Position numbers and translations under genes: made by a program. Shown here one piece after another: positions 2,343 to 64,000 of a stretch of 64,000 bases of DNA. The notes under the pieces were generated by a model that saw only the letters and a list, made by a program, of their open reading frames with translations, made no database searches and was not told the DNA's origin. Numbering within the stretch: the stretch's first letter is position 1; every line of letters starts with the position of its first letter. Origin of the DNA: Sphingomonas sp. (GTDB taxonomy: Bacteria > Pseudomonadota > Alphaproteobacteria > Sphingomonadales > Sphingomonadaceae); assembly GCF_017304615.1 (NCBI RefSeq), contig NZ_JAFKLZ010000003.1, positions 186,001-250,000 on the forward strand. Direction: 5' to 3'.

Positions 2343-3506
2343 ATGCCGGGCGAACCCAGTTTCACGATTGGCGACGACACGCTCCGGCTGATTACCGAGG
2401 GGCCCGAGCGCCTGACGGCCTTGCTCGATCTGATCGACGGCGCGACGCGGTCGTTGCGCATCCTCTATTACATCTATGTCGACGACGATGCCGGGGCAAA
2501 GGTGCGCAGCAGCCTGATCGCGGCGGTGCGGCGCGGCGTTCAGGTCAAGCTGATCGTCGACGGGCTGGGCAGCGAGCATGCCGAGAACCACCGCTTTTTC
2601 GATCCGCTGAAGGACGCCGGGGTCGACGTCTGCCGCTTCGTGCCGCGCTGGGGACGCCGCTACCTGTTGCGCAACCACCAGAAGCTTGCCTTGGCCGATG
2701 AAAGCCGCGTTATCATCGGCGGGTTCAACATCCAGGATTCGTATTTCGGCACCGCCGAGGATCAGGCGTGGCGCGACCTGGGATTTTATGTCGAGGGTCC
2801 GGCGGCGGCACATCTGACCGGCTATTTCGATGCGCTCGCCGTGTGGGCGCAGGACGAGCACCCGCCGCTTCGTTCGCTTCGCGTCCTGCTGTCGAAATGG
2901 AGCGAACCGACGGGCACGCGGCGCTGGCTGTTCGGCGGCCCGACGCGCAGGCTGTCGCCCTGGGCGCGGGCGATCCGCAAGGATTTGAAGAAGGCGCGGC
3001 GCGCCGACCTGATCAGCGCCTATTTCGCGCCGAGTCCCGGGATGCTGCGCCGGCTCGACCGGATCGGCGAACGCGGGCGGGCGCGGATCGTGCTGGCGTC
3101 GAAGAACGACCATGGCGCCGCGATCTGGGCATCGCGCTTCACTTATGCCGGACTACTCAGGAAAGGCGTGGAGATATTCGAATATCAGCCCACCAAGCTC
3201 CACACCAAGCTCTTCCTGATCGACGACATCGTCTATATCGGATCCGCGAATTACGACATTCGTAGCCTCTACCTGAATCTGGAGCTGATGCTCCGGATCG
3301 AGGACGAGGCGTTCGCGGCACATGTCCGCGGCTATATCGAGGGCGAAATCGCCAACTCCGAACGGATCACCCCGGCGATCTACAAGGCGCGCACCAGCCT
3401 ATGGATGCGCGTCAAGCAAGCCGCGGCGTTCTTCGTGATGACAGTGCTGGACTATAACGTGACTAGGCGGCTCAATTTCGGCCGCGAGCGGCTCAAGCGG
3501 CCTTAG
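2343..3506 (+). CDS. Phospholipase D-like / cardiolipin-synthase-type protein
   Basis: A 387-residue member of the PLD superfamily with two HKD motifs: HQKLALAD in the first half and HTKLFLID in the second, each followed by the usual hydrophobic strand and Gly/Asn turn (IGGFN, IGSAN). Two HKD motifs form one active site that transfers phosphatidyl groups (cardiolipin synthesis) or hydrolyses phosphodiesters. There are no N-terminal membrane spans, unlike ClsA, so it resembles ClsB/ClsC-type enzymes. ATG 2343 was chosen because the open frame reaches further upstream only by overlapping the coupled small gene; the SD (GAGAGGGG) is close to this ATG. It converges with, and overlaps by 14 bases, a PmtA-like methyltransferase gene. 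Confidence 0.8.
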   Translation: MPGEPSFTIGDDTLRLITEGPERLTALLDLIDGATRSLRILYYIYVDDDAGAKVRSSLIAAVRRGVQVKLIVDGLGSEHAENHRFFDPLKDAGVDVCRFVPRWGRRYLLRNHQKLALADESRVIIGGFNIQDSYFGTAEDQAWRDLGFYVEGPAAAHLTGYFDALAVWAQDEHPPLRSLRVLLSKWSEPTGTRRWLFGGPTRRLSPWARAIRKDLKKARRADLISAYFAPSPGMLRRLDRIGERGRARIVLASKNDHGAAIWASRFTYAGLLRKGVEIFEYQPTKLHTKLFLIDDIVYIGSANYDIRSLYLNLELMLRIEDEAFAAHVRGYIEGEIANSERITPAIYKARTSLWMRVKQAAAFFVMTVLDYNVTRRLNFGRERLKRP

Positions 3507-4128
3507 CCTCTTCCTTGTCCTTCCACGCCCAGAAATTGTGGCTGGGCGGGATGGCGATCCATTCGATCGAATAGTCGATGTTCGACCAGTGCGGCTCCAG
3601 GAAGTCGCGTACCTTGGGGCGGAACTGATAGACCAGGAACGCGCCGCCCGGCCTCAGCACGCGATGCGTCGCGGCGGCGATGGCGGGCGCCACGCCCTTG
3701 GGCAGCGTCGAGAAGGGGAGGCCAGACAGGACGTAATCGGCGTTCTCGAAACCGTGGTCGGCGACGATCTTTTCGACGTCTTCGGCCGAACCGAGCACCG
3801 GAATGAACCGCGAATCGGTGAACTTGATGCTGAGATAGTCGATGAAGTCGGGATTGGTGTCGATCGCGATATAAGTGCCGTCGGCGGGCAGGCGATCGAG
3901 GATGTTCTGCGTATAGGTGCCGACGCCGGGGCCGTATTCGACGAACAGCTTGGTGTTCGCCCAATCGACGCGCTTGAGCATGGTGTTCTGCAGCGTCTTG
4001 GTCGATGCGATCACCGACCCGACCATCACCGGGCGCTTGAGGAAGCCACCGAGAAACATCGCCCATGGGCTGGGGAGCTTGCGCGCGCGCGTCTCCGCAT
4101 GGTCGAGGGCGAAGCGGTGTTGGGCCAT
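3493..4128 (-). CDS. SAM-dependent methyltransferase, PmtA-like (possible phospholipid N-methyltransferase)
   Basis: A 211-residue class I methyltransferase. Motif I is VEYGPGVGTYT, an acidic residue ends strand 2 (IAIDTNPDF), and a post-motif LRPGGAFLVYQF is present. The pattern and length fit the PmtA-like group (COG3963) that methylates phosphatidylethanolamine towards phosphatidylcholine; substrate assignment is inference only. The start at 4128 is set by AAGGAAG about 4 bases upstream; an in-frame ATG 13 codons further up lacks such a site. The 3' end overlaps the convergent PLD-type gene, so two candidate lipid-modifying genes face each other. Confidence 0.7.
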   Translation of the reverse strand: MAQHRFALDHAETRARKLPSPWAMFLGGFLKRPVMVGSVIASTKTLQNTMLKRVDWANTKLFVEYGPGVGTYTQNILDRLPADGTYIAIDTNPDFIDYLSIKFTDSRFIPVLGSAEDVEKIVADHGFENADYVLSGLPFSTLPKGVAPAIAAATHRVLRPGGAFLVYQFRPKVRDFLEPHWSNIDYSIEWIAIPPSHNFWAWKDKEEAKAA

Positions 4129-4241
4129 GGTCTTCCTTAGCAATTGTCGAGGTGCGACCGGGCGCACGCCGATCCCCCTCTCGCAAAGCTGAAAGGTTCG
4201 ATCAAGCCTTTAGGGCGCATCGGCGGGTTGCGCGGAGGCGA

Positions 4242-4586
4242 ATGCGCGTCCATCCGCAGGCGATGACCAAGCGAGCGGCAGGCGAAATCGCGGTGATCTT
4301 CGTGTCGCGGATCACCGGCGCCGATCCCGACGGCTATGCGGCCGCGGCGGCGGCGATGGAAGTGCTCGCCGCCGGGCAGCCCGGCTATCGCGGCATCGAC
4401 AGCGCAAGGGGCGGGGACGGGCTGGGCATTACCATCTCCTATTGGGCGGACGAGGCGGCGGCAGTCGCGTGGCGCGGGCACGCGGAGCACACCGAAATCC
4501 GCGAGCGAGGGCGGGGCGTCTGGTACGAATCCTATTCGGTCCACGTCGCCGAAATCGTCCGCAGCTACGACTGGACCAGGCCATGA
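4242..4586 (+). CDS. ABM-domain (antibiotic biosynthesis monooxygenase-like) protein
   Basis: A 114-residue protein with the small ferredoxin-like ABM fold signature: a first strand IAVIFVSRITG, a central GYRGIDSARG strand-turn and the aromatic YWADEAAAVAWRGHAEH helix typical of YgiN/YdhR relatives. These proteins act as cofactor-free monooxygenases, heme-degrading enzymes or simple dimeric binders, and the role here is not predictable. ATG 4242 follows GGAGG by only 3-4 bases; ATG 4263 is an alternative that would shorten the protein by 7 residues. The stop overlaps the next gene's start (ATGA), so it is coupled to the MFS transporter. Confidence 0.7.
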   Translation: MRVHPQAMTKRAAGEIAVIFVSRITGADPDGYAAAAAAMEVLAAGQPGYRGIDSARGGDGLGITISYWADEAAAVAWRGHAEHTEIRERGRGVWYESYSVHVAEIVRSYDWTRP

Positions 4587-5881
4587 GCCGGCGCTTCGAT
4601 CGCGATTTCACGATCCTGTTCATCGTCATGCTGACGATCGCGGCGGGCAATACCGCGCTGCAATCGGTGCTCCCCGCGATCGGGCGTTCGCTCCACGTCC
4701 GCGACAATGCGGTCGCGGCGGCGTTCTCGGTGTCGGCGCTGCTCTGGGTGCTGGCCGCGCCGTTCTGGGCCAATCGATCGGACCGGCAGGGGCGCCGGAC
4801 GATGATCCTGCTCGGTCTCGGCGGCTTCGCGGTATCGCTGTCGCTATGCGGCGCGTTCCTGCTCGCCGGAATCAACGGCTGGATCGGCGGGACGGCGGCC
4901 TTCCTGCTCTTTATCCTGGGGCGGCTGATCTACGGCAGCCTCGGCGCGGCGGCGCCGCCTGCGATTCAGGCGATCGTCGCGGGCCGCACCACGCGCGATG
5001 AACGCACCAAGGCGCTGACGTTGCTTGGCTCGGCGTTCGGCCTCGGCACGATCCTCGGCCCGGCGGTTGCGCCCTACCTGTTGTTGGGCAGTATCGGCGC
5101 GGTGACGATCGGGCTGTCGGGGCCGGCGTTCCTGTTCGCACTGTTCGGGCTGGCCATGTTCGTCGTGGTGCGACGAATGCTGCCCGACGATCGGACCGAA
5201 GCGTTGCTGGACGAACCCGGCAGCCACGGGGCGGCCAACGCATATCCGTCGATCGGTGGTCAGTCTTCGGGGGCGAGCATCACCGCCGCCACGGCCCCGC
5301 GCAGCGAACACATCGCGATGTTCGACCCGCGCGTGCGACCCTGGATGATCGCGGGTCTGGTGTTCGGCCATGCCCAGGCGATGACCGGTCAGGCGATCGG
5401 CTTCCTGGTGATCGACCGCCTGGCGCTGCCCCCGACGGAGGCGCTGGAGCCGACCGGCATCGTGCTGATGATGGGCGCTGGCGCGGCGTTATTAGTGCAA
5501 TGGGGCCTGATCCCGATCCTCAACATGCAACCGCGGGCGATGATGCTGGTCGGGCTGGCGATCGGTGCGGCCGGATGTGCGCTGACCGGTATCGCGACAT
5601 CGCTTTACGGCATCGCCACAGCCTACGCGCTCGCCAGCATCGGGTTCGGCTTTACGCGTCCCGCCTTCACCGCGGGATCGAGTCTGGCGGTCGGGTCGGA
5701 GGCGCAGGGATCGGTGGCGGGCAAGGTCACGAGCGTCAACGGCGCGAGCTTCGTGCTCGGCCCGTCGATCGGCGTCGGGCTGTACGAGGCGCAGCATTCG
5801 CTGCCCTATCTGACTGCGGGTGCGGCGTGCCTGGTGCTGGTCGGCTATTGCGCGGTCGCGTTGAAACCCGCGCGGGGCTGA
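4583..5881 (+). CDS. MFS transporter (TetA/multidrug exporter-like)
   Basis: A 432-residue, 12-span major facilitator. The loop 2-3 signature is NRSDRQGRR (motif A), and the conserved glycine-rich span-5 stretch LGSAFGLGTILGPAV resembles the antiporter motif C of drug exporters. The central loop after span 6 is unusually long (about residues 195-245, Ser/Ala/Pro rich). It overlaps the ABM-domain gene by 4 bases, so the two are expected to be co-expressed; an ABM enzyme plus an exporter suggests handling of a small quinone-like or aromatic compound, but that is inference. The convergent gene begins 3 bases after its stop. Confidence 0.85.
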   Translation: MSRRFDRDFTILFIVMLTIAAGNTALQSVLPAIGRSLHVRDNAVAAAFSVSALLWVLAAPFWANRSDRQGRRTMILLGLGGFAVSLSLCGAFLLAGINGWIGGTAAFLLFILGRLIYGSLGAAAPPAIQAIVAGRTTRDERTKALTLLGSAFGLGTILGPAVAPYLLLGSIGAVTIGLSGPAFLFALFGLAMFVVVRRMLPDDRTEALLDEPGSHGAANAYPSIGGQSSGASITAATAPRSEHIAMFDPRVRPWMIAGLVFGHAQAMTGQAIGFLVIDRLALPPTEALEPTGIVLMMGAGAALLVQWGLIPILNMQPRAMMLVGLAIGAAGCALTGIATSLYGIATAYALASIGFGFTRPAFTAGSSLAVGSEAQGSVAGKVTSVNGASFVLGPSIGVGLYEAQHSLPYLTAGAACLVLVGYCAVALKPARG

Positions 5882-5884
5882 CCC

Positions 5885-6622
5885 TCAGCGGATGTCCTTA
5901 TAGCCCTTCGTCACGGGCTTGCCGCTGAACAGGATCGAGAAATAGTTGATGAAGTAGATGCTCGCCATCTTGACGAACCCCTGCTTCTGCATCCGCCGTG
6001 CGGAGGTGGGCATCACGAAGCCGGGGCAGAACAGGACCTTGCCGAACTTCTTGGCGCGTTTGCCGATATCGACGTCCTCGCCATAGAATTCGATCTTCTC
6101 GTCAAACCCGCCCATCTTCTCCAGCACGTCGCGGCGGATCGCGAAATTCCCGCCGACCATCATGTGCCCGGTGACGCCGTATAGCGGGCGAGCAGCGACG
6201 AACCATCCGGTCGAAATCCTGTTACGGATGCCGCTCAGGTCATAAAAGCTGTAGGGGCCGGACAGGCAGGCGAGCCCGGGGTCCTTGCCGAACTGGTCCC
6301 AGATCTGGTCGATCCAGCCCGCAGGCGGGTGCGTATCCGCGTCGACATAAGCGAGGATGTCGCCAGTCGACACCACGAAGCCGCGCTGGCGCGCGCGCGT
6401 GATGCCCTTGGCTGGCTCGAACACGTATTTTACCGCCGGATAGCGTTCGACCACCGCCTTCGTGCCGTCGGTGCTATTATTGTCCACAACGACGATCTCC
6501 GTTGCGTACGGCGCGACGTTCGCCATCACGGCATCGAGGCACGCGGGCAGATAGGCTTCCTCGTTGTAGGCGGGGATAACGAGGCTGATCGTCGGCCTTC
6601 GCGCTTCGGTAGCGGCGGTCAT
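5885..6622 (-). CDS. Family 2 glycosyltransferase
   Basis: A 245-residue GT-A fold glycosyltransferase. The N-terminal nucleotide-binding strand is ISLVIPAYNEE, the first acidic motif is VVVDNNSTDGT and the metal-binding DxD-type motif is AYVDADTH. A later EDVDIG matches the catalytic-base ED motif. There is no obvious membrane span until a weak C-terminal hydrophobic stretch (MASIYFINYFSILFSG), so it may be peripheral. Such short GT2 enzymes add sugars to lipid carriers or envelope glycans; acceptor and donor are unknown. It lies 41 bases downstream of the CDC48-type ATPase on the same strand and could share its transcript. Confidence 0.85.
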   Translation of the reverse strand: MTAATEARRPTISLVIPAYNEEAYLPACLDAVMANVAPYATEIVVVDNNSTDGTKAVVERYPAVKYVFEPAKGITRARQRGFVVSTGDILAYVDADTHPPAGWIDQIWDQFGKDPGLACLSGPYSFYDLSGIRNRISTGWFVAARPLYGVTGHMMVGGNFAIRRDVLEKMGGFDEKIEFYGEDVDIGKRAKKFGKVLFCPGFVMPTSARRMQKQGFVKMASIYFINYFSILFSGKPVTKGYKDIR

Positions 6623-6663
6623 CCGGCGGCTACTGCCTTACTATCCCTCGCCTGACCAGACTT

Positions 6664-8967
6664 TTAGTCGCTCCCCTTCGGCCCGTGCGGACGCAATTGC
6701 CCGGGCGCGATGAAACCGATCGGCTGGAGGGCGGCGGCATCCTGCTTGATCGTCGCGGCGATCCGCTCGTAGTCGCGCTCCATCTCCTGGGTGACGCTGG
6801 CGCGGGCATCGGCCAGCCCTTCCTCGAAATCGGCCATCGTCACCGATCTGGCGTCGATGTTCCGGCGCAGCGCGATCAACCCGGCGCGGCGGGTCAGGTC
6901 CTCCAGATCGGCGCCGGTGAAGCGTTCTGTCCGCGCCGCCAGCGTATCGAGGTCGACATCGTCGGCGAGCGGCATCTTCGCGGTCTGGATCGCCAGGATG
7001 CGCCGCCGCCCGTTCTGGTCGGGAACTCCGACATAGATCAACTCGTCGAAGCGTCCGGGGCGAAGCAACGCGGGATCGACCAGGTTGGGCCGGTTGGTCG
7101 CGCCGATCACCACGACCGACTGCAGCTCCTCCAGCCCGTCCATCTCCGACAGGATGGTGTTGACCACGCGTTCGGTGACTTGCGGCTCGCCCATGCCGCC
7201 GCCGCGCGCCGGTACCAGGCTGTCGATCTCGTCGATGAAGATCACGGTCGGCGCGACCTGGCGGGCGCGCGCGAACAGTTTGGCGATCTGCTGTTCGCTT
7301 TCCCCATACCATTTGCTGAGCAGGTCGGACGATTTGGTCGAGATGAAGTTCGCCTCCGCCTCGCGCGCTACCGCCTTCGCCAGCAGTGTCTTGCCGGTCC
7401 CCGGCGGGCCGTAGAGCAGGAAGCCCTTGGCCGGGCGGATGCCGAGGCGACGGAACGCGTCGGGGTCCTTGAGCGGGAGTTCGACGCCTTCCTTCAGCCG
7501 CATCTGAGCGTCGTCGAGGCCGCCGACATCGTCCCAGCGGACACGCGGCGCCTCGACCATCACTTCGCGCATCGCCGAGGGCTGGACTCGCTTGAGCGCG
7601 CCCAGAAAATCCTCGCGCGTCACTGCGAGCGTATCGAGCACGTCGGGCGGGATCGTGCGTTCCTCAAGGTTGAGCTGGGGCATGATCCGCCGTACCGCCT
7701 CGATCGCCGCCTCGCGCGCCAGCGCCGCCAGGTCCGCACCGACAAAGCCGTAAGTCGTGCGCGCCAGCTCGTCGAGGTCGACCCGGTCGCCCAGCGGCAT
7801 GCCGCGCGTGTGGATCGCCAGAATCTCGCGGCGACCGCGCTCGTCGGGCACGCCGACCACGATCTCGCGGTCGAAACGGCCGGGCCGCCGCAGCGCTTCG
7901 TCGATCGCTTCCGGACGGTTGGTCGCGGCGATCACCACCAGGTTGGCGCGCGCTTCCAGCCCGTCCATCAGCGTGAGAAGCTGGGCGACGAGGCGCTTTT
8001 CCGCCTCTCCGGTGACCTGGCCGCGCTTGGGCGCGATCGAATCGATCTCATCGATGAACACGATCGACGGCGCGTTCTTGCTCGCTTCCTCGAACACCTG
8101 GCGCAGCTTCGATTCGCTCTCGCCATAGGCCGACCCCATGATCTCCGGGCCGTTGATCAGGAAGAATTGCGCGTCCGATTCGTTGGCGACGGCGCGCGCG
8201 AGCCGCGTCTTGCCGGTGCCGGGCGGGCCGTGGAGCAGTACCCCCTTGGGCGGATCGACGCCGAGCCGCTGGAACAGTTCGGGATAGCGCAGCGGCAGTT
8301 CGACCATCTCGCGCAGCTGGTCGATCGTCGCCGCCATCCCGCCGATGTCGTCATACGTGACATCGGCGCGGCGCGCGTCCTTCGGTTCCTCATATTCAGG
8401 GCGCAGTTCGATCTCGGTGTTGGCGTCGATCTGGACGACGCCCTTGGGAACGGTCGAAATCACCGCGAGGCGCACTTCCTGGAGCGCATAGGCCGGCGCG
8501 CGGAGATATTGCGCGACGTTGGGCGGCATGCCTTCGGGATCGACGCGCTGCTGGCCGGCGGTGGCGACAATATCCCCCTGGCAGATCGGGCGGCCGATGA
8601 AGGTGCGGTGCAACGCGCCCGTCGATCCCTGCAATCGCAGATTCTGTTGCGCGGGGGCGAATACCACGCGAGTCGCGGCCTTCACCTCGGCCTTGCGAAT
8701 GTCGACATAGTCGCCCGATCCGACCCCGGCATTGGCGCGCTGGAGGCCGTCGATGCGAATCAGTTCGAGCCCCTCGTCCTCGGGATAGGGGGCCACGGCG
8801 CGGGCGGGCGTCGTGGTCTTGCCGACAATCTCGATCACGTCGCCTTCGCCGATGCCCAGCGCCGCCATCAGGGCACGCGGGACATGCGCCAGGCCACGGC
8901 CGCTATCCTCCGGCCGCGCGTTGGCGACCTGTAGTTTGCGCGGGGGAGCGTCGTCGCCGTCAGCCAT
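6664..8967 (-). CDS. CDC48/VCP-type AAA+ ATPase with two ATPase domains
   Basis: A 767-residue protein with the complete CDC48 plan: an N-terminal substrate-binding domain (about residues 1-185, double-psi barrel with the [14 protein letters not shown] stretch), then two AAA domains. Walker A motifs are [10 protein letters not shown] near residue 246 and [10 protein letters not shown] near 520; the Walker B motifs are VFIDEIDS and IFIDEIDS. Arginine-finger regions ([17 protein letters not shown]) are intact. CDC48/VAT hexamers pull proteins out of complexes or feed the proteasome in archaea and eukaryotes; the bacterial role is poorly known. The start at 8967 was picked because upstream codons are in a non-conserved polar frame. 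No protease gene is adjacent. Confidence 0.93.
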
Positions 8968-9065
8968 CGAAAAACCTGTCCGTTCCGGGGAAATGGGAGC
9001 GAACGAGATAGCGACGCGGTTCCCGATGTGCGAGGGGCGCGGTTCAACGCGAGCGAATCGCGGAT

Positions 9066-9094
9066 AAAAAAAGGCCGGACCCAAGGGCCCGGCC
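9066..9094 (-). terminator. Orphan intrinsic terminator
   Basis: GC-rich hairpin 9073-9094 (GGCCGGACCC, loop AA, GGGCCCGGCC; one mismatch) followed on the minus strand by seven T (9072-9066). It would end a transcript entering from the right, yet the next gene there (LysR) is on the plus strand. On the plus strand the T-run is weaker (GTTTTT after seven bases). Confidence 0.6.
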
Positions 9095-9179
9095 GGAAAA
9101 GTTTTTAGGAGAGGATGCCTGAAAGGCCTGCTCTATGTGCGGTGCAGCACGGCATTGTGCAAGTGCGAAAAGAAATCGG

Positions 9180-9198
9180 TTGCATGCACGAAATGCAA
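9180..9198 (+). promoter_or_regulatory. Candidate LysR-type binding box
   Basis: The dyad TTGCAT-N7-ATGCAA satisfies the T-N11-A rule for LysR-type regulators and lies 97 bases upstream of the LysR start. It is a likely autoregulatory site, by position and form only. Confidence 0.4.
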
Positions 9199-9294
9199 TC
9201 GTAAGTTGATTTCCGTAAGAGGAGGAATGGCGACATTCCTGGAATCGGTATGTGCGGCAATGCACAACCGCGAGGATGACGTAAGGGAAAGCGA

Positions 9295-10173
9295 ATGCGC
9301 CGCCTGCCGCCATTGACCGCGATCGAGGCCTTTGTTCAAGTTGCCCGCACAGGGTCGGTAAAAGCCGCCGCGCAGGAACTGTCCTTGTCCGCGCCCGCGC
9401 TCAGCCGGCGAATCCAGTCGCTCGAGGGTTTTCTCGGCAAGCCGCTGTTCGAGCGGCGGCACCAGGCGGTCGCGCTCAACGAGGATGGCGAGCGGTTGCT
9501 GCAACAGATCGCGCCGGTGCTCGATCGGCTGACCGATGCGGTCGAGTTCATGACCAGCGGGATCGAGGTGATGCGGCTTCGGCTCGGCGTGCTGCCGCTG
9601 TTCGCGTCACAGCGTATCTTTCCGCATCTGGCCGAGTTGCGCGCCAGGCATCCGCAGCTTCACCTCGACATCGACACGGCCGGACATAACATGGCGCGGG
9701 TCGGCGACGGGCTCGATGTCGCGATCGCGCTGGCGCGGGAACCCGATCCCAGCCTCTATTCGAAACGGCTCGATCGCAATCAGGTCTATCTCATCGCCGC
9801 GCGGTCGTTGGTCGAGGGAGCCGATCCGGTCACGCGGCCCGAACAGCTCGCCGGGCTGACCGCACTGATCCATCGCGACATGCCCGACACGTTCAGCGCC
9901 TGGCGGCACGCGGCGGGACTCGACGATCTCGAGCCGCTGGCGGTCGACCATTTCGATTCGGGCGCGCTGATGCTCGAAGCGGCGGCGCAGGGACTGGGCG
10001 TCGCCTTCATGCATGCCAGCCATTTCGACGAAGCGCACGACCCGCGATTGGTAAAGCTGTTCGATATTAAAGTGGACAGTCCGTACAGCTATTGGTTCGT
10101 CTGCCGGCCCCGCGCGATGCAACAAAAGCCGGTTAAAATCTTCCACGATTGGCTCGTCGAAACCTTGATGTAA
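9295..10173 (+). CDS. LysR-family transcriptional regulator (GcvA-like)
   Basis: 292 residues. The N-terminal winged HTH is clear: PPLTAIEAFVQVARTGSVKA, then LSLSAPALSRRIQSLE as recognition region and FERRHQAVALNEDGERLL as wing, within residues 1-65. The remainder matches the LysR two-lobe effector domain. The opening RRLPPLTAIEAF is typical of the GcvA/AmpR branch. An AGGGAAA sequence lies 5 bases before the ATG. No divergently transcribed enzyme gene sits beside it, so the usual neighbour-based guess at its target fails; the dyad at 9180-9198 may be its own operator. Confidence 0.93.
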   Translation: MRRLPPLTAIEAFVQVARTGSVKAAAQELSLSAPALSRRIQSLEGFLGKPLFERRHQAVALNEDGERLLQQIAPVLDRLTDAVEFMTSGIEVMRLRLGVLPLFASQRIFPHLAELRARHPQLHLDIDTAGHNMARVGDGLDVAIALAREPDPSLYSKRLDRNQVYLIAARSLVEGADPVTRPEQLAGLTALIHRDMPDTFSAWRHAAGLDDLEPLAVDHFDSGALMLEAAAQGLGVAFMHASHFDEAHDPRLVKLFDIKVDSPYSYWFVCRPRAMQQKPVKIFHDWLVETLM

Positions 10174-56755: not shown

Positions 56756-57336
56756 TTATATTGGGTAGGGGGGTGCGACGAGACGTGCTCCCCATTTCTC
56801 CTCCAGCAGTAGCTGGAGTCCGAGGTTGTCATGGTGCCCTTGCGGGCGGGATTGCACAAGCCACCTGGCAGCGTTGGCGGGAGTCAGCCCCTCTATCCCG
56901 CTTTGCTGTCGCATATGGTTGTAGCCGTCGCGCCAGCTGCTCAGCATCGGGCGGGCATTGCTCAACGAGGCAAACAGCATCTCGTTCAGGAATCGTCACG
57001 CAAGCGGCCATCGAAGCTCTCGACTTAGCCGTTCTGTTGCGGCTTGCCCGGCGCGATGTAATGCCACTCGATCTGCCGGTCCTGCGCCCAACGCAGGATC
57101 GCCAGGCTCATCAACTCGGTCCCGTTATCGCTTACCATCATCGTCGGCCTGCCGCGCACCGCGATGATCGCGTCCAACTCCCGTGCGACGCCGGCACCCG
57201 ATTTCGACTTGTCGACCACCAGCGCGAGGTTTTTGCACGTAAAGTCATCGACGACGGCGAGGACAGGGCCATGCCACCGTAGGTCGCCTTCAATTTGCAG
57301 ATCGTCGCGCTGATCACTCCGTCGAAGCATCAGGAG
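56756..57336 (-). mobile_element. IS3-family element remnant with internal deletion
   Basis: Read on the minus strand from the right: a piece of OrfA (GVISATICKLKATYGGM, the end of its HTH region) is joined straight to the second half of OrfB (VLAVVDDFTCKNLALVVDKS, MMVSDNGTELMS, IAPGKPQQNG), so the end of orfA and the first half of orfB are deleted. OrfB then has a stop (TAA where Tyr is expected before VESFDGRLRD), a 1-base deletion a few codons later, and resumes as NEMLFASLSNARPMLSSW to its natural end at 56756. Of the DDE triad two Asp and the Glu region can be traced, but the enzyme cannot be made. Terminal inverted repeats were not identified. Confidence 0.85.
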
Positions 57337-59036: not shown

Positions 59037-60395
59037 ATGGTTATGGTCGATAATCCCAACAAAGTTTTCAGTCGGGTTGGACCCGGAACGCCAATGGGAA
59101 ACCTCTTTAGGCGCTTCTGGTTGCCGGCTGTTCTTTCCAAGCAATTGCCAGAATCAGACGGGACGCCAGTCCGATTGAGAATTTTATGCGAAGATCTGGT
59201 GGCTTTTCGTGATTCTGATGGGGAGGTCGGCATCATCGACGCTTTTTGCCGTCATAGACTGGCACCACTTTATTTCGGCCGAAATGAAGAATGCGGCCTA
59301 CGCTGCGTCTACCACGGATGGAAATGGAATCGGAAAGGTGAATGCGTCGACATTCCCAATATTCAGCCGCCCGACAATTATGATGATCTCAAGGAGAAAG
59401 CTCGGATCAAGAGCTATCCGACTTTCGAGAAGAACGGGCTTGTCTGGGTATATATGGGGCCGGCTGACAAGCAGCCTCCGGTGCCCGGATTTGAATGGAT
59501 GAACGTGCCGGCGGATCAGGTTATGATCTCGAGCTGGATTCACCATTCGAACTTTCATTTGGCAATGGAAGGCGAGATCGATACGTCCCACATTTCCTTC
59601 CTTCACAGTTCGAAGCCCGACCCAGACGCTACCGGGCCCGCGAGCGCACTACAGTATGCTACGGACGGCGCACCGGAAATCACGTTGCACGAAACCGACT
59701 ATGGATACGTCTACGGCTCGCGCCGAAATATTCCTGACCAATACTACTGGCGCATCACACAGTGGATGCTGCCTATGTGGAGTGCGATCCCCGGGGGCTT
59801 GGAAGAATTCGTCGGCAACGGTCGCGGATGGGTGCCGATTGACGACAACACGACGATGGCTTTCGGATACATGTACCGCGCAGATCGCCCGTTCGCTCCT
59901 CAGGAGCGGGCGTTTGTGGAAAGCGGAGCAGCGTTTCCGCCGAGGACGGAGTATCGACCTGTGGAGATTTCCGGAGGTCGAATGATCGACGCCTACGATA
60001 CAGTAGCAAACAAGGGCAACGACTATCTAATTGACCGGCAGATACAAAAGACCAAAACCTATACAGGGATCTGGGGAATTAATGAGCAGGATCGCGGCCT
60101 GATAGAGTCTATGCCGTGGGCAAATGAGGCGGACCCGGGAGTTGTAGACACGACGCGGGAGATGCTTGTCCGATCGGATTATCCGATCATGGTTGCGCGC
60201 CGGCGTCTTATCAAAATGGCTACCGATCTAGAAAAGGGCATCGAGCCGGTCGAACCATCTCTCGGCGGAAATAATCTTGGAGTCCGGGCTGTAAGTATCA
60301 TTTCGAAAATCGGAGATTTCGACGAACTGATGGTCGAGCATGGCGAACAGACGAAGGCGGCTGGGCCAGCAAAACGGTTCGAGAACGTAAGTTAG
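59037..60395 (+). CDS. Rieske non-heme iron oxygenase, phthalate 4,5-dioxygenase-like
   Basis: 452 residues. Rieske [2Fe-2S] ligands are C71-R-H73 and C90-x2-H93 (FCRHRLAPLYFGRNEECG, then LRCVYHGWKW); the mononuclear iron site has D182-x2-H185-x4-H190 (EIDTSHISFLH). The GTPMGNLFRRFWLPA opening and the FGRNEE-GLRCVYHGWK block place it in the phthalate dioxygenase / O-demethylase (OMO) branch, single-component homo-oligomers fed by a separate FMN-[2Fe-2S] reductase. No reductase gene is in the window. It could dihydroxylate a phthalate-like acid or demethylate a methoxybenzoate. The start could be ATG 59037 or 59043; an in-frame TTG lies at 59004. Confidence 0.9.
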   Translation: MVMVDNPNKVFSRVGPGTPMGNLFRRFWLPAVLSKQLPESDGTPVRLRILCEDLVAFRDSDGEVGIIDAFCRHRLAPLYFGRNEECGLRCVYHGWKWNRKGECVDIPNIQPPDNYDDLKEKARIKSYPTFEKNGLVWVYMGPADKQPPVPGFEWMNVPADQVMISSWIHHSNFHLAMEGEIDTSHISFLHSSKPDPDATGPASALQYATDGAPEITLHETDYGYVYGSRRNIPDQYYWRITQWMLPMWSAIPGGLEEFVGNGRGWVPIDDNTTMAFGYMYRADRPFAPQERAFVESGAAFPPRTEYRPVEISGGRMIDAYDTVANKGNDYLIDRQIQKTKTYTGIWGINEQDRGLIESMPWANEADPGVVDTTREMLVRSDYPIMVARRRLIKMATDLEKGIEPVEPSLGGNNLGVRAVSIISKIGDFDELMVEHGEQTKAAGPAKRFENVS

Positions 60396-60473
60396 TAGGA
60401 CACCTGGCGGAGGACAAGGCAACTTGCCCCGCGCCCTAACCGCTCGTCTTATTTCCGGCACTTGGGAGCGCTT

Positions 60474-61676
60474 ATGACGACGGCAGAAAAAAAAGATCCC
60501 GTGAGGATCGGGGTGGTTGGCCTTGGAATGGCCGGTACGATCATGATTCCCGTGATCCTGGCGCACCCAGCGACTGTACTTGCCGGTGCGTGTGACCTTA
60601 GCGCCGATCTGAGAGAAAGTTTTGCCCGAGATTTCTCGTGTCCAGTTACGGAGTCTGCAGAAGAGCTGTTTGCAAGAAGCGATATCGACGCCGTCTACAT
60701 TGCGACGCCCCATCAGTTCCATTGCGAGAACGTCAAATTGGCGGCGAGTTATGGCAAGCACGTTATCGTCGAAAAGCCAATGGCTCTGACGCTTCCAGAT
60801 TGTGACGCAATGATTGCAGCGGCCGAGGCGGCGGGTACGGTATTGGTGGTTGGGCATTCACACGGTTTCGACTCGACCACGAAGCTAGTCAGCGAAATCG
60901 TGGCAAGTGGCCGGTTGGGTCGTCTGCGCATGATCCTCACCTTCAACTATACGGATTTTGTATACCGCTTCCGCCGACCAGAAGAATTGGACACCAGTCT
61001 AGGCGGTGGCATTATTTTTAATCAAATCCCACACCAGATCGATTTTGTTCGCACGGTTGCCGGTGGTGTAAGGGTTACGGGCGTCTCTGCTGTAACCGGG
61101 CAGTTCGATCCGGGGCGCCCAACTGAGGGCGCCATGATGTCCCTTCTTGAGTTAGAAGGGGGTATCTATGCCACGCTAGTTTACAGCGGCTACGACCATT
61201 TCGACAGCGATGAGCTACACGGCTGGATTGGCGAAGGAGGCCAGACCAAAGAGCCGCGCCACGGAAAGACGCGAGCGCAACTACGATCTGTCGCCGATCC
61301 CGCGGACGAAGCTGCGATGCGCGGAAAAGTATATTCCTACGGTGGGTCTCTCTGGAAGCAACTTGGCTTCCGAGGTGATCGAAGCGATCATCCTCATTTT
61401 GGCATGGCGATAGTCACGTGCGAGCGAGGCGATATCCGCCCCGTTCCTGGCGGTGCCATGGTGTATGGCGATGGAGGTCCAGAGTTCGTCAAGCTCGATC
61501 CGCCGCGCGCTGGCGGCGGTAGGAGCGAAGTGCTCGACGAACTATGCGCGGCAGTCCGCGATGGTCAGCACCCAATGCATGACGGTGCGTTCGGACGCGA
61601 AACGCTCAGAGCGTGCTCAAACATTTTGCTCGCCGCGGCTGCAGGCCTTCCCGACGTGGGAACCTGGCGCGAGTAG
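60474..61676 (+). CDS. Gfo/Idh/MocA oxidoreductase, phthalate dihydrodiol dehydrogenase-like
   Basis: 400 residues. The Rossmann nucleotide loop is GVVGLGMAG near residue 14, the family's EKP motif occurs in HVIVEKPMALTLPDC and the catalytic-domain histidine in FNQIPHQIDFVRTVAGG. LRMILTFNYTDFVYRFRRP and ATLVYSGYDHFDSDELHGWI resemble Pht4/OphB, which oxidise cis-4,5-dihydro-4,5-dihydroxyphthalate to the catechol with NAD. Placed 78 bases after the Rieske gene, it supports a dihydroxylation rather than a demethylation as first step, though substrate identity is inference. GGGAGCG lies about 7 bases before the ATG. Confidence 0.88.
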   Translation: MTTAEKKDPVRIGVVGLGMAGTIMIPVILAHPATVLAGACDLSADLRESFARDFSCPVTESAEELFARSDIDAVYIATPHQFHCENVKLAASYGKHVIVEKPMALTLPDCDAMIAAAEAAGTVLVVGHSHGFDSTTKLVSEIVASGRLGRLRMILTFNYTDFVYRFRRPEELDTSLGGGIIFNQIPHQIDFVRTVAGGVRVTGVSAVTGQFDPGRPTEGAMMSLLELEGGIYATLVYSGYDHFDSDELHGWIGEGGQTKEPRHGKTRAQLRSVADPADEAAMRGKVYSYGGSLWKQLGFRGDRSDHPHFGMAIVTCERGDIRPVPGGAMVYGDGGPEFVKLDPPRAGGGRSEVLDELCAAVRDGQHPMHDGAFGRETLRACSNILLAAAAGLPDVGTWRE

Positions 61677-61698
61677 TTATTCAAAGAGGAACATTGCA

Positions 61699-62718
61699 AT
61701 GTACGGTGAAGTAAAAGTGTTCGATATACACGGCCATGTTTCGGCGCCGATGCACGGGACACCTGCGCTGGCGATGATGTTGGCCTCGAATACGCCATTG
61801 AGCATTGACCCGCGCAAAGCGGTGGACCCACGGCTGAATCTTACCGAAGAGGCATGGTCCGAGTCGGTTGGCCGGCATGTAGCGTTACTAGACGAATATA
61901 GAATAGACGCACAACTCATCGGTCCACGACCGTTTCTGATGCTCGGCTGGATGAGCAGCCACTTGCTACCGCAATGGACTCGCTACGTAAATAACGCGAT
62001 CGCGAAACAGGTGTCCCTCGCGCCGGATAGATTTATTGGCGCCGCGCAATTACCGCAAAATGCAGACGCGGACGATCTGGCCCATTGCCTTCCCGAACTG
62101 GAAAGATGCGTCCACGAACTAGGTTTCAAGGCGGTCTACCTTAGCCCCGACCCAACCGGCGATCGCCGGTCTCCTGGAATGGACAAGCCATACTGGCATC
62201 CCGTGTACAAAAAGTGCCAAGAACTTGGTCTGCCAATTATTGTCCATGGAACAAACTGTCTTGATCATCGGCTGGACATTATTCCACATAACTATCAGAT
62301 CGGATTCGTTTGGGAGCAATATCTAGCTACCCAGTTATTCAGTCATGGTGATGTATTTGAGCGATTTCCTGAGCTCAAAGTTCTGATCTGTCACTGCGGC
62401 GGTGCCCTCGATAGATTTATCAAGACCGACTATCATCTTGCCCAGAAAGATCTGTCTAAGAACTTATTTTTTGATACTAACGCGCCAGAACTTAACTTTC
62501 TCGAGGCAGCGATCAAGCAACGAACGCCTGAACGAATTTGTTTCGGCACCGAAGCGCCCGGGTCTGGTGCATCTGTTCGACCAGAAACGGGAAGGCCCGG
62601 CGACGACCTAGTTCCCGTCATTGGCGCCTTCGACTTTCTAAGCGAGCACCAGAAAGTCTTGATCTTCAATACAAATCCAAAGCACGTATGCCCGGCGTTC
62701 GGGCAACTCGACCACTGA
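61699..62718 (+). CDS. LigJ-like amidohydrolase-superfamily protein (4-oxalomesaconate hydratase-like)
   Basis: 339 residues, amidohydrolase_2 fold. Metal-site residues follow the family: H11-G-H13 (FDIHGHVSAP), H183 (PIIVHGTN), H232 (LICHCGGALDRF) and E285 in ICFGTEAPGSG. DAQLIGPRPF, FERFPELKVLICHCGGA and GAFDFLSEHQKVLIF match LigJ of Sphingobium closely enough to prefer that assignment over gamma-resorcylate or ACMS decarboxylases. LigJ hydrates 4-oxalomesaconate (the meta-cleavage product of gallate) to 4-carboxy-4-hydroxy-2-oxoadipate. AAAGAGGA precedes the ATG; spacing to the neighbours is 22 and 24 bases. Confidence 0.85.
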   Translation: MYGEVKVFDIHGHVSAPMHGTPALAMMLASNTPLSIDPRKAVDPRLNLTEEAWSESVGRHVALLDEYRIDAQLIGPRPFLMLGWMSSHLLPQWTRYVNNAIAKQVSLAPDRFIGAAQLPQNADADDLAHCLPELERCVHELGFKAVYLSPDPTGDRRSPGMDKPYWHPVYKKCQELGLPIIVHGTNCLDHRLDIIPHNYQIGFVWEQYLATQLFSHGDVFERFPELKVLICHCGGALDRFIKTDYHLAQKDLSKNLFFDTNAPELNFLEAAIKQRTPERICFGTEAPGSGASVRPETGRPGDDLVPVIGAFDFLSEHQKVLIFNTNPKHVCPAFGQLDH

Positions 62719-62742
62719 GATCATAGCGGCCGGAGTTAGTCG

Positions 62743-63360
62743 ATGATCGACGCTGCACTGATTGAGCGAGCGAGCAAGCTCTCGTCGGCAACGATGCATG
62801 AGGCGTCGGGGCGGAGGGGTGCGCTTCCAGCCAGTATTCGCCCGATCGATCGCGCGATGCGCCTAGCTGGTGTTGCGCTGCCGGTGCGGTGTCCGCTCGG
62901 CGACAATCTTTGGATCCACCGCGCTCTCGCAGTTGCCGAGCCCTGGGACGTTTTGGTGATCGAAGCCGGTGGAGGCACGGACTTCGGCTATTGGGGAGAG
63001 ATAATGGCGACGATGGCCGTTGCTCGAAGGTTAGCAGGCATCGTGATTTCGGGGGGTGTTCGCGACACACAGCAGTTGATTTCCCTAGGCTTGCCGACGT
63101 TCTCGAGCGGTGTGGCCATCCGAGGAACCGAGAAAGATCCCACCGGCGCTGGTGCCGTCGGCGAGCCTGTCAGAATGGGCGAAACGGTCGTCAAACGAGG
63201 CGATTTAATAGTCGGTGATGCTGACGGGGTAGCCTGCTTCGACGCGGCCACCGCTGCCAACTTGATCGCGAAATCTGAGGAGCGAGACCTAACGGAAGCC
63301 CTAATCATGGACGAGCTTCGAGGAGGAGCAAGCACGCTCGAAATATATCGGCTTGAGTAG
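62743..63360 (+). CDS. RraA-like 4-carboxy-4-hydroxy-2-oxoadipate aldolase (LigK/ProA type)
   Basis: 205 residues, class II pyruvate aldolase of the RraA-like fold. The substrate/metal signature is GIVISGGVRDTQQLISLGLP, with the Arg-Asp pair that binds pyruvate and Mg2+, preceded by FGYWGEIMATMAVARRLAG, which supplies the conserved Gly-Glu. It splits 4-carboxy-4-hydroxy-2-oxoadipate (and often HMG) into pyruvate and oxaloacetate, the last step after LigJ. RraA itself lacks the catalytic pairing, so an RNase E inhibitor role is unlikely. GGAG lies 8 bases before the ATG. Confidence 0.87.
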   Translation: MIDAALIERASKLSSATMHEASGRRGALPASIRPIDRAMRLAGVALPVRCPLGDNLWIHRALAVAEPWDVLVIEAGGGTDFGYWGEIMATMAVARRLAGIVISGGVRDTQQLISLGLPTFSSGVAIRGTEKDPTGAGAVGEPVRMGETVVKRGDLIVGDADGVACFDAATAANLIAKSEERDLTEALIMDELRGGASTLEIYRLE

Positions 63361-63430
63361 CTCTATCGAGAGCAATTTATCGGCAGGGTTCACCTGCAAA
63401 CGTGGTTCAACGAACAACGGGAGCACCGCA

Positions 63431-64000
63431 ATGGCGAAGGTCGTACTAGGAATAGGAACATCTCACAGCCCACTCTTAACGATTGCTGGCGGAGATTGGC
63501 ACGCGCGCGCCGAGGCCGATAGGCGTAACGGGAGCCTCACCCTGGCAGACGGCAGAATGCTATCTTACGATCAACTCGTCCAAGAAAGGGGTGAGCCGTA
63601 CACGGCTGTTGCAACCTCCGAGAAATTTTCGGAGCTCGCACAGGTTAGCCAGGCCGAGCTCGACAAGCTTGGTGAAGCGATTGCAGAGGCGCAGCCCGAT
63701 GTCGTTGTGATCGTCGGTGACGATCAGGACGAGCTGTACTCACCGGGTAACATGCCTGCGCTGGCCATTTTTTGGGGTCAGAAAGTAATTATGCATGCAA
63801 TGCCTGATGACTTGCCGCCTTGGATGAAGTCGATGGCCAAGGGTTACGCGATGGATGCGCGGCACGAATTTGCTGGCCACCCCGAATTGGCGCTCGACAT
63901 CATCAAGGGAATGATGGACCGTGGTGCAGACCTCGCGATCTGTAAGGATGTTCCGGACACCAATGAAGCTGGCTTTGGCCATGCATTCGGCTTTCCCGTC
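63431..64000 (+). CDS. Type II (LigB-superfamily) extradiol dioxygenase, DesZ/DesB-like, 3' end outside window
   Basis: 190 residues are visible before the window ends. The first Fe(II) ligand H12 lies in GIGTSHSPLL; LADGRMLSYDQLVQERGE and VVVIVGDDQDELYSPGNMPA are strongly reminiscent of SYK-6 DesZ (3-O-methylgallate 3,4-dioxygenase) and, less so, of LigB and gallate dioxygenase DesB. It should open a protocatechuate- or gallate-type ring next to the carboxyl-distal hydroxyls. GGGAGC lies 7 bases before ATG 63431. It is the fifth gene of the run and feeds the LigJ- and LigK-like enzymes encoded just upstream. Confidence 0.88.
   Translation, partial: MAKVVLGIGTSHSPLLTIAGGDWHARAEADRRNGSLTLADGRMLSYDQLVQERGEPYTAVATSEKFSELAQVSQAELDKLGEAIAEAQPDVVVIVGDDQDELYSPGNMPALAIFWGQKVIMHAMPDDLPPWMKSMAKGYAMDARHEFAGHPELALDIIKGMMDRGADLAICKDVPDTNEAGFGHAFGFPV

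Follow-up and report, generated by a model that had tools for sequence, protein, structure and literature searches.

The 5,5'-dehydrodivanillate (DDVA) module of SYK-6, in which the genes run ligZ, RraA, RraA, ligY and are accompanied by ligXa, ddvT and ddvK, is among the closest described relatives of the operon analysed here. Parts of the operon also recall the Pht3-Pht4-reductase set of the phthalate pathway, the SYK-6 gallate module DesB-LigJ-LigK, and cbaABC of Comamonas testosteroni BR60, whose CbaC is a Gfo/Idh enzyme. The cbaABC system converts 3-chlorobenzoate to 5-chloroprotocatechuate, according to PMC6379261. For the DDVA pathway, PMC12673573 proposes a route from 4-carboxy-2-hydroxypenta-2,4-dienoate (CHPD) through 4-hydroxy-4-methyl-2-oxoglutarate (HMG) to pyruvate, and Table 2 of that paper lists the alkene hydration as not identified. 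Here we describe an operon of a Sphingomonas sp. (genes P0001 to P0010, plus strand) that begins at base 59037 of a 64,000-base window, corresponding to G000:C4:186001-250000 in a 438,574-base contig of a 3.34 Mb genome; coordinates above 64000 are window-equivalent positions beyond the edge of the window. In this operon, a ring-oxidising front end of the phthalate type appears to be combined with the machinery that opens the rings of lignin biphenyls. Searches of an open-access library turned up no description of such an operon.

Results

A preliminary description of the window had reported five tightly spaced plus-strand genes, and their positions and intergenic gaps of 78, 22, 24 and 70 bases were confirmed. 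The products P0001 to P0005 gave Pfam matches above the cut-off to Rieske plus LigXa_C, GFO_IDH_MocA, Amidohydro_2, RraA-like and LigB, respectively, as expected. The reading as an aromatic-acid operon with a phthalate-type front end was supported, the gallate-type lower pathway placed behind it was not, and the supposed three-enzyme module has further parts, namely two more RraA paralogues, a RidA-like protein and a reductase. Comparison of gene order elsewhere, which that description had suggested, revealed the same order in genome G187 (locus L040), where nine genes from the Rieske oxygenase to the TonB receptor match at 60-84% identity, indicating that the arrangement is more than chance.

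P0005 (63431 to 64420, plus strand, crossing the window edge at 64000; Pfam LigB) had been called DesZ-like. A 55-row tree instead placed it together with LigZ inside a 43-row superclade (support 98/95), away from LigB and DesB and outside the narrow LigZ clade. Against LigZ it scored 191 bits and against another SYK-6-type enzyme 216, compared with 67 for LigB and 48 for DesB. In 43/43 superclade rows, the columns of P0005 residues 99 and 101 hold Gln and Glu, respectively, while position 99 was His in 12/12 rows outside the superclade and Gln in 0/12. This histidine is the second metal-ligand histidine of LigB, in whose place the superclade carries glutamine, with glutamate two residues further on. 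A P0005 relative was present in 21 of 298 family genomes.

The operon encodes RraA1 (P0004, 62743-63360), RraA2 (P0007, about 64814-65467) and RraA3 (P0008, 65475-66122), with a RidA-like protein (P0006, 64422-64808) between P0005 and P0007, all on the plus strand. In a 64-row tree, RraA1 formed a branch (95/90) adjoining the LigK clade, in agreement with its earlier label of LigK-like. P0007 grouped with the first RraA gene after ligZ in an RraA2 clade of 20 rows (97/98), and P0008 with the second, the wider RraA3 set being supported at 99/95. Identity to the paralogues between ligZ and ligY of a SYK-6-type genome was 48% for P0007 and 54% for P0008. D/E-X20-R-D, the motif of RraA-fold aldolases of HMG and 4-carboxy-4-hydroxy-2-oxoadipate (CHA), is present in RraA1 (E-X20-R-D intact) and RraA3 and is broken in RraA2. 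Among 61 rows (3 of the 64 were left out of the motif count), position 102 of the Pseudomonas putida F1 aldolase corresponds to Gly in 20/20 RraA2, Asp in 22/22 RraA3, Glu (8) or Asp (4) in the 12 RraA1, and Asp in 7/7 LigK-type rows. Four further RraA2 proteins also carry Gly, bringing the total to 24/24. Arg123, Asp124 and Glu199 are conserved in 61/61 rows; PMC5065237 gives Arg123 as essential and Asp124 and Glu199 as metal-binding.

The SYK-6-type genome used for these comparisons, G144, carries the row ligZ, RraA, RraA, ligY and encodes a LigY that matches PDB LigY at 100% identity over 326 residues. It was named SYK-6-type because of this identity and because its gene order fits the ligZ and ligY locus tags in PMC12997858, which have space for two intervening genes; other G144 paralogues were labelled by sequence start and position.

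RraA2 occurred in 17 of the 298 family genomes, all 17 lying within the 21 that have a P0005 relative, where the two surveys (298 genomes each) are taken as one sample. Sixteen of 19 RraA2 places were within 8 kb of a P0005-type dioxygenase and the other three adjoin a LigY relative, the 19 being what is left of 21 after removal of the two weakest, which were read as cross-hits to neighbouring RraA3. Since RraA2 is diverged, with one acid of the aldolase motif gone, yet fixed to this pathway, it is a natural candidate for the unassigned hydratase of the SYK-6 DDVA pathway. Alternatively, it could pair as a subunit with the RraA3 aldolase.

The amidohydrolase P0003 (61699-62718, plus strand) had been described as LigJ-like. 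In our trees, P0003 forms with its L040 and L041 counterparts and an actinobacterial protein a third branch beside LigJ and LigY, and it lies outside the LigJ clade (100/100) both in the first tree and in a second, for which 13 of 48 rows were left out beforehand. Its bit scores were 178 to LigY and 124 to LigJ, and against the PDB entries 172 and 116, respectively. Diagnostic residues were taken from 42 columns in which the 11 LigY-clade rows and the 5 LigJ rows are each nearly fixed with differing letters; the four rows of the P0003 branch carry the LigY letter at 12 of these, including Tyr190, and the LigJ letter at 2. A P0003 structure model built from a six-sequence alignment (mean predicted local distance difference test score 78) was compared by Foldseek, and LigY ranked first by E-value. 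Neither tree nor fold decided between LigY and LigJ affinity; on the bit scores, diagnostic residues and Foldseek E-value, we favour P0003 as a putative meta-cleavage C-C hydrolase of the LigY type. Decarboxylase function was rejected, as LigW and LigW2 gave 50 bits each against 178 for LigY, and P0003 falls outside the LigW/LigW2 clade. A class-wide search for P0003-type enzymes at E 1e-75 returned only the window's own copy, in 1 of 385 genomes.

The front end consists of the oxygenase P0001 (59037-60395), the dehydrogenase P0002 (60474-61676) and, at the far end of the operon, the reductase P0010 (68505-69488), all plus-strand; minus-strand genes come next. P0001 (Pfam Rieske and PF19301) matched best in the PDB to 9ina (300 bits). 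PMC12445078 cites 9INA and 9IOY and describes the isophthalate dioxygenase of C. testosteroni KF1. In a 38-row tree, P0001 and its counterparts in L040 and L045 formed a 100/100 clade that joins the KF1 isophthalate dioxygenase and L059 at 93/90, outside both the LigXa clade and the phthalate dioxygenase clade. A role as LigXa-clade O-demethylase was rejected on this placement, and the operon is therefore not classed as a DDVA pathway proper. Of the residues that bind the isophthalate carboxylates according to PMC12445078, Arg234 and Thr175 are kept in P0001 and His257 aligns with Arg263. The pocket differs at five other positions (Gly172->Glu, Val178->Ile, Phe249->Leu, Ile294->Phe and Phe333->Ile), and isophthalate is therefore not necessarily the substrate.

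P0002 matched 3moi, an unnamed dehydrogenase, at 373 bits and the 4,5-dihydroxyphthalate dehydrogenase 7wzd at 359 bits over 382 residues, and its earlier designation as Pht4-like stands. In several annotated records, its plasmid relatives (42-48% identity) adjoin Rieske or PDR/VanB reductase genes. The preliminary description had proposed looking for a reductase past position 64,000, and P0010, found there, gave 183 bits to the phthalate dioxygenase reductase 2pia, its top match being a cytochrome P450 fusion at 196 bits. With a reductase, a Pht4-type dehydrogenase and a LigXa_C-family oxygenase nearest to isophthalate dioxygenase all in place, the assignment of a phthalate-type front end holds up. 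In the G187 operon, only a remnant of the reductase gene is left (L040 14400-14900), and the oxygenase there must therefore borrow electrons from another reductase.

Recurrence of the module was assessed by automatic component counts at 39 loci, many of them on short contigs, that carry a LigZ-superclade dioxygenase; six loci lacking such a dioxygenase and L052, a duplicate of L040, had been left out. RraA3 was counted at 22 loci, RraA1 at 12, a LigXa-type Rieske oxygenase at 13 and a Gfo/Idh protein at 5. RraA2 was counted at 18, rising to at least 21 after direct reading, a longer false open reading frame (ORF) having masked it in L095-L097. A Fisher value of 3e-24 from this count ignores relatedness. 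G187 keeps the same interleaved order of ring-cleavage, amidohydrolase and RraA genes, and these parts occur again in G264. In L041 and on a Bradyrhizobium plasmid, P450 genes accompany the lower module, whose order on the plasmid is dioxygenase, amidohydrolase, RidA, RraA2, RraA3. In this plasmid, pCB82_1 of Bradyrhizobium sp. CB82 (L154, conjugative, 2978-9993), two P450 genes adjoin the module and RraA2 is annotated as a hypothetical protein. At L045 (14214-18452), RidA and RraA1 stand beside CoA-transferase III, acyl-CoA dehydrogenase and HMGL-like genes that possibly serve to process a branched diacid product.

The operon also includes a TonB receptor (P0009, about 66154-68385, plus strand). 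Upstream lie an IclR-type regulator (P0011, 55821-56588, plus strand) and a major facilitator superfamily (MFS) transporter (P0012, 57351-58739, minus strand) divergent from the operon, with counterparts of 51% and 61% identity, respectively, at corresponding places in L040. Between the two genes is an integrase-core (rve) insertion-sequence fragment (57028-57330, minus strand), at whose place L040 has a flavin mononucleotide (FMN) oxidoreductase gene. The operon has a G+C content of 54%, compared with 66% for window bases 1-50000, and a P0005 relative was found in 0 of the 5 same-genus genomes listed in the search; together these suggest that the operon was horizontally gained.

Related genes occur elsewhere in the genome. 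A second LigZ-type dioxygenase, 54% identical to P0005, lies at G000:C1:540469-552000 (L039 8469-19998) with MFS, carboxylesterase, AMP-ligase, IclR, Rieske (37%), reductase (41%), RidA (55%) and TonB plug domain genes, and no amidohydrolase or RraA gene was found near it. Two further loci, at G000:C7:113-120 kb and C4:65-71 kb, gave Amidohydro_2, RraA and LigB matches whose members group with LigJ, LigI-like, LigK and LigB references; by this grouping, the true protocatechuate-pathway LigJ, LigK and LigB relatives sit outside the operon. According to the preliminary description, ligC/ligI together with a 4,5-dihydroxyphthalate decarboxylase just downstream would mark an ordinary phthalate-protocatechuate 4,5-cleavage cluster, and this refuting arrangement was not found in the following searches. 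A genome-wide Amidohydro_2 search gave no match downstream of the operon on contig C4, and hence no ligI or LigW-type decarboxylase lies there. No ligC or Pht5-like gene was recognised by eye in the ORFs to window-equivalent 89000, and a Pht5-like query (its identity inferred) found no match in the genome, in a search without a positive control.

Discussion

The operon resembles the SYK-6 DDVA module in its LigZ-superclade dioxygenase, LigY/LigJ-group amidohydrolase, orthologous-looking RraA2 and RraA3, LigXa_C-family Rieske oxygenase, and nearby TonB receptor and MFS genes. It differs in that its Rieske oxygenase groups towards isophthalate dioxygenase in the tree and not with LigXa, its amidohydrolase branches apart from LigY, and it additionally contains a cis-diol dehydrogenase, RidA and RraA1. 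The TonB receptor reaches at best 28% identity over 205 residues with the SYK-6 cluster receptors, and P0012 had no match among the SYK-6 cluster proteins compared. The dehydrogenase and reductase are shared in kind with the phthalate pathway, from which the operon departs in that P0001 lies outside the clade of the phthalate dioxygenase of KF1 and no Pht5-type decarboxylase was recognised. The gallate module of SYK-6 has the same Pfam families, but its dioxygenase and amidohydrolase belong to different clades. The logic proposed below, from a meta-substituted benzoate to a 5-substituted protocatechuate, has its front-end precedent in cbaABC (PMC6379261); the cbaABC product enters the protocatechuate meta-fission pathway, whereas here a LigZ/LigY-type module sits in the operon itself.

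From the observed gene content, family placement, conserved residues and module recurrence, we infer the following pathway, to which we assign a probability of about 0.5. The acid, imported by the TonB receptor and the MFS protein, would be a benzoate substituted with a carbon group R at the position meta to its carboxylate. P0001 with the reductase P0010 would add O2 next to R, and P0002 would rearomatise the cis-dihydrodiol to 5-R-protocatechuate. P0005 would then cut the ring LigZ-style between C-OH and C-R. With R attached through carbon, such cleavage would leave a vinylogous ketone, for which a LigY-type hydrolase is needed; P0003 would hydrolyse the C-C bond to give R-COOH and CHPD or a close analogue. 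RraA proteins would finish the pathway, with CHPD hydrated, possibly by RraA2, and then split by an aldolase, for which RraA1 or RraA3 may serve, to give pyruvate. RidA may assist tautomerisation. Such a scheme would explain why these genes travel together.

Several observations weigh against this proposal. P0003 is outside the LigY clade; grouping it with LigY gave an approximately unbiased test p value (p-AU) of 0.15 and grouping it with LigJ 0.07, and neither is rejected. At 28 of the 42 diagnostic columns, the P0003 branch matches neither enzyme, and the TM-scores of its model to LigJ (0.74-0.81) are as good as those to LigY (0.74-0.76). A LigY/LigJ-group amidohydrolase is within reach in only 22 of the 39 loci, several loci have none of the module, and the combination of Rieske, Gfo/Idh, amidohydrolase, RraA2 and RraA3 occurs in only three (L003, L040 and L045). 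RidA is found in 10/39 and in 0/6 loci with a LigZ-labelled dioxygenase beside LigY (L091, L093, L095-L098). RraA2, by keeping Arg123, Asp124 and Glu199, possibly retains residual aldolase-type chemistry.

The same front end and LigZ-type opening could instead be followed by a P0003 that acts as a hydratase or other amidohydrolase superfamily enzyme, the substituent not being released by C-C hydrolysis, as with an isophthalate-like diacid. The separate deep branch of P0003, the unrejected LigJ grouping, TM-scores to LigJ that are equal or higher, and an oxygenase nearest to isophthalate dioxygenase are all consistent with this. The excess of LigY-type over LigJ-type residues argues the other way, as does the finding that, in the loci examined, amidohydrolases near LigZ-superclade dioxygenases score best to LigY, LigY2 or P0003 and not to LigJ, and we regard this alternative as rather unlikely. 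The gallate scheme of the preliminary description, in which a trihydroxylated ring is opened and then processed by LigJ hydration and LigK aldol cleavage, fits all the folds, and RraA1 adjoins LigK with its aldolase motif kept. It is rejected because of the tree and signature of the dioxygenase and further weakened by the nearness of P0003 to LigY; it also leaves the RraA2/RraA3 pair without a place, and LigJ, LigK and LigB relatives are already present elsewhere in the genome, making it improbable.

RidA raises the question of a nitrogen-bearing substrate. 2-Aminomuconate deaminases belong to the RidA family, and RidA is one of the operon genes in both L003 and L040 and adjoins RraA2 in L100 and L154, as might be expected if it were the working deaminase for an amino- or amido-substituted aromatic acid. 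It accompanies the module, however, under different upper enzymes (Rieske plus Gfo/Idh, LigXa-type Rieske, P450) and therefore follows the lower half and not one substrate, so that we give this possibility little credence. Slightly less probable still is an ordinary isophthalate- or phthalate-to-protocatechuate operon with bystander genes: oxygenase, dehydrogenase and reductase all resemble phthalate-type enzymes, and protocatechuate 4,5-cleavage genes exist elsewhere in the genome, but the interleaved order conserved in G187 and the recurrence of the parts in G264 speak against bystanders.

Returning to the proposed C-C hydrolysis pathway, a further and tentative idea, which we hold to be possible but doubtful, is that RraA2 represents a new kind of RraA-fold hydratase acting on CHPD that would fill the SYK-6 DDVA step, and that the operon would be a dioxygenase-fed relative of that pathway opening meta-carbon-substituted benzoates, of biaryl type or otherwise, that carry no methoxy group in need of removal. 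The ligZ/ligY lower module recurs as a unit under different first-step enzymes, namely Rieske plus Gfo/Idh, LigXa-type Rieske and P450. The RraA2 lead would offer a concrete candidate gene for a step of the best-studied lignin-dimer pathway that Table 2 of the 2025 paper (PMC12673573) gives as not identified.

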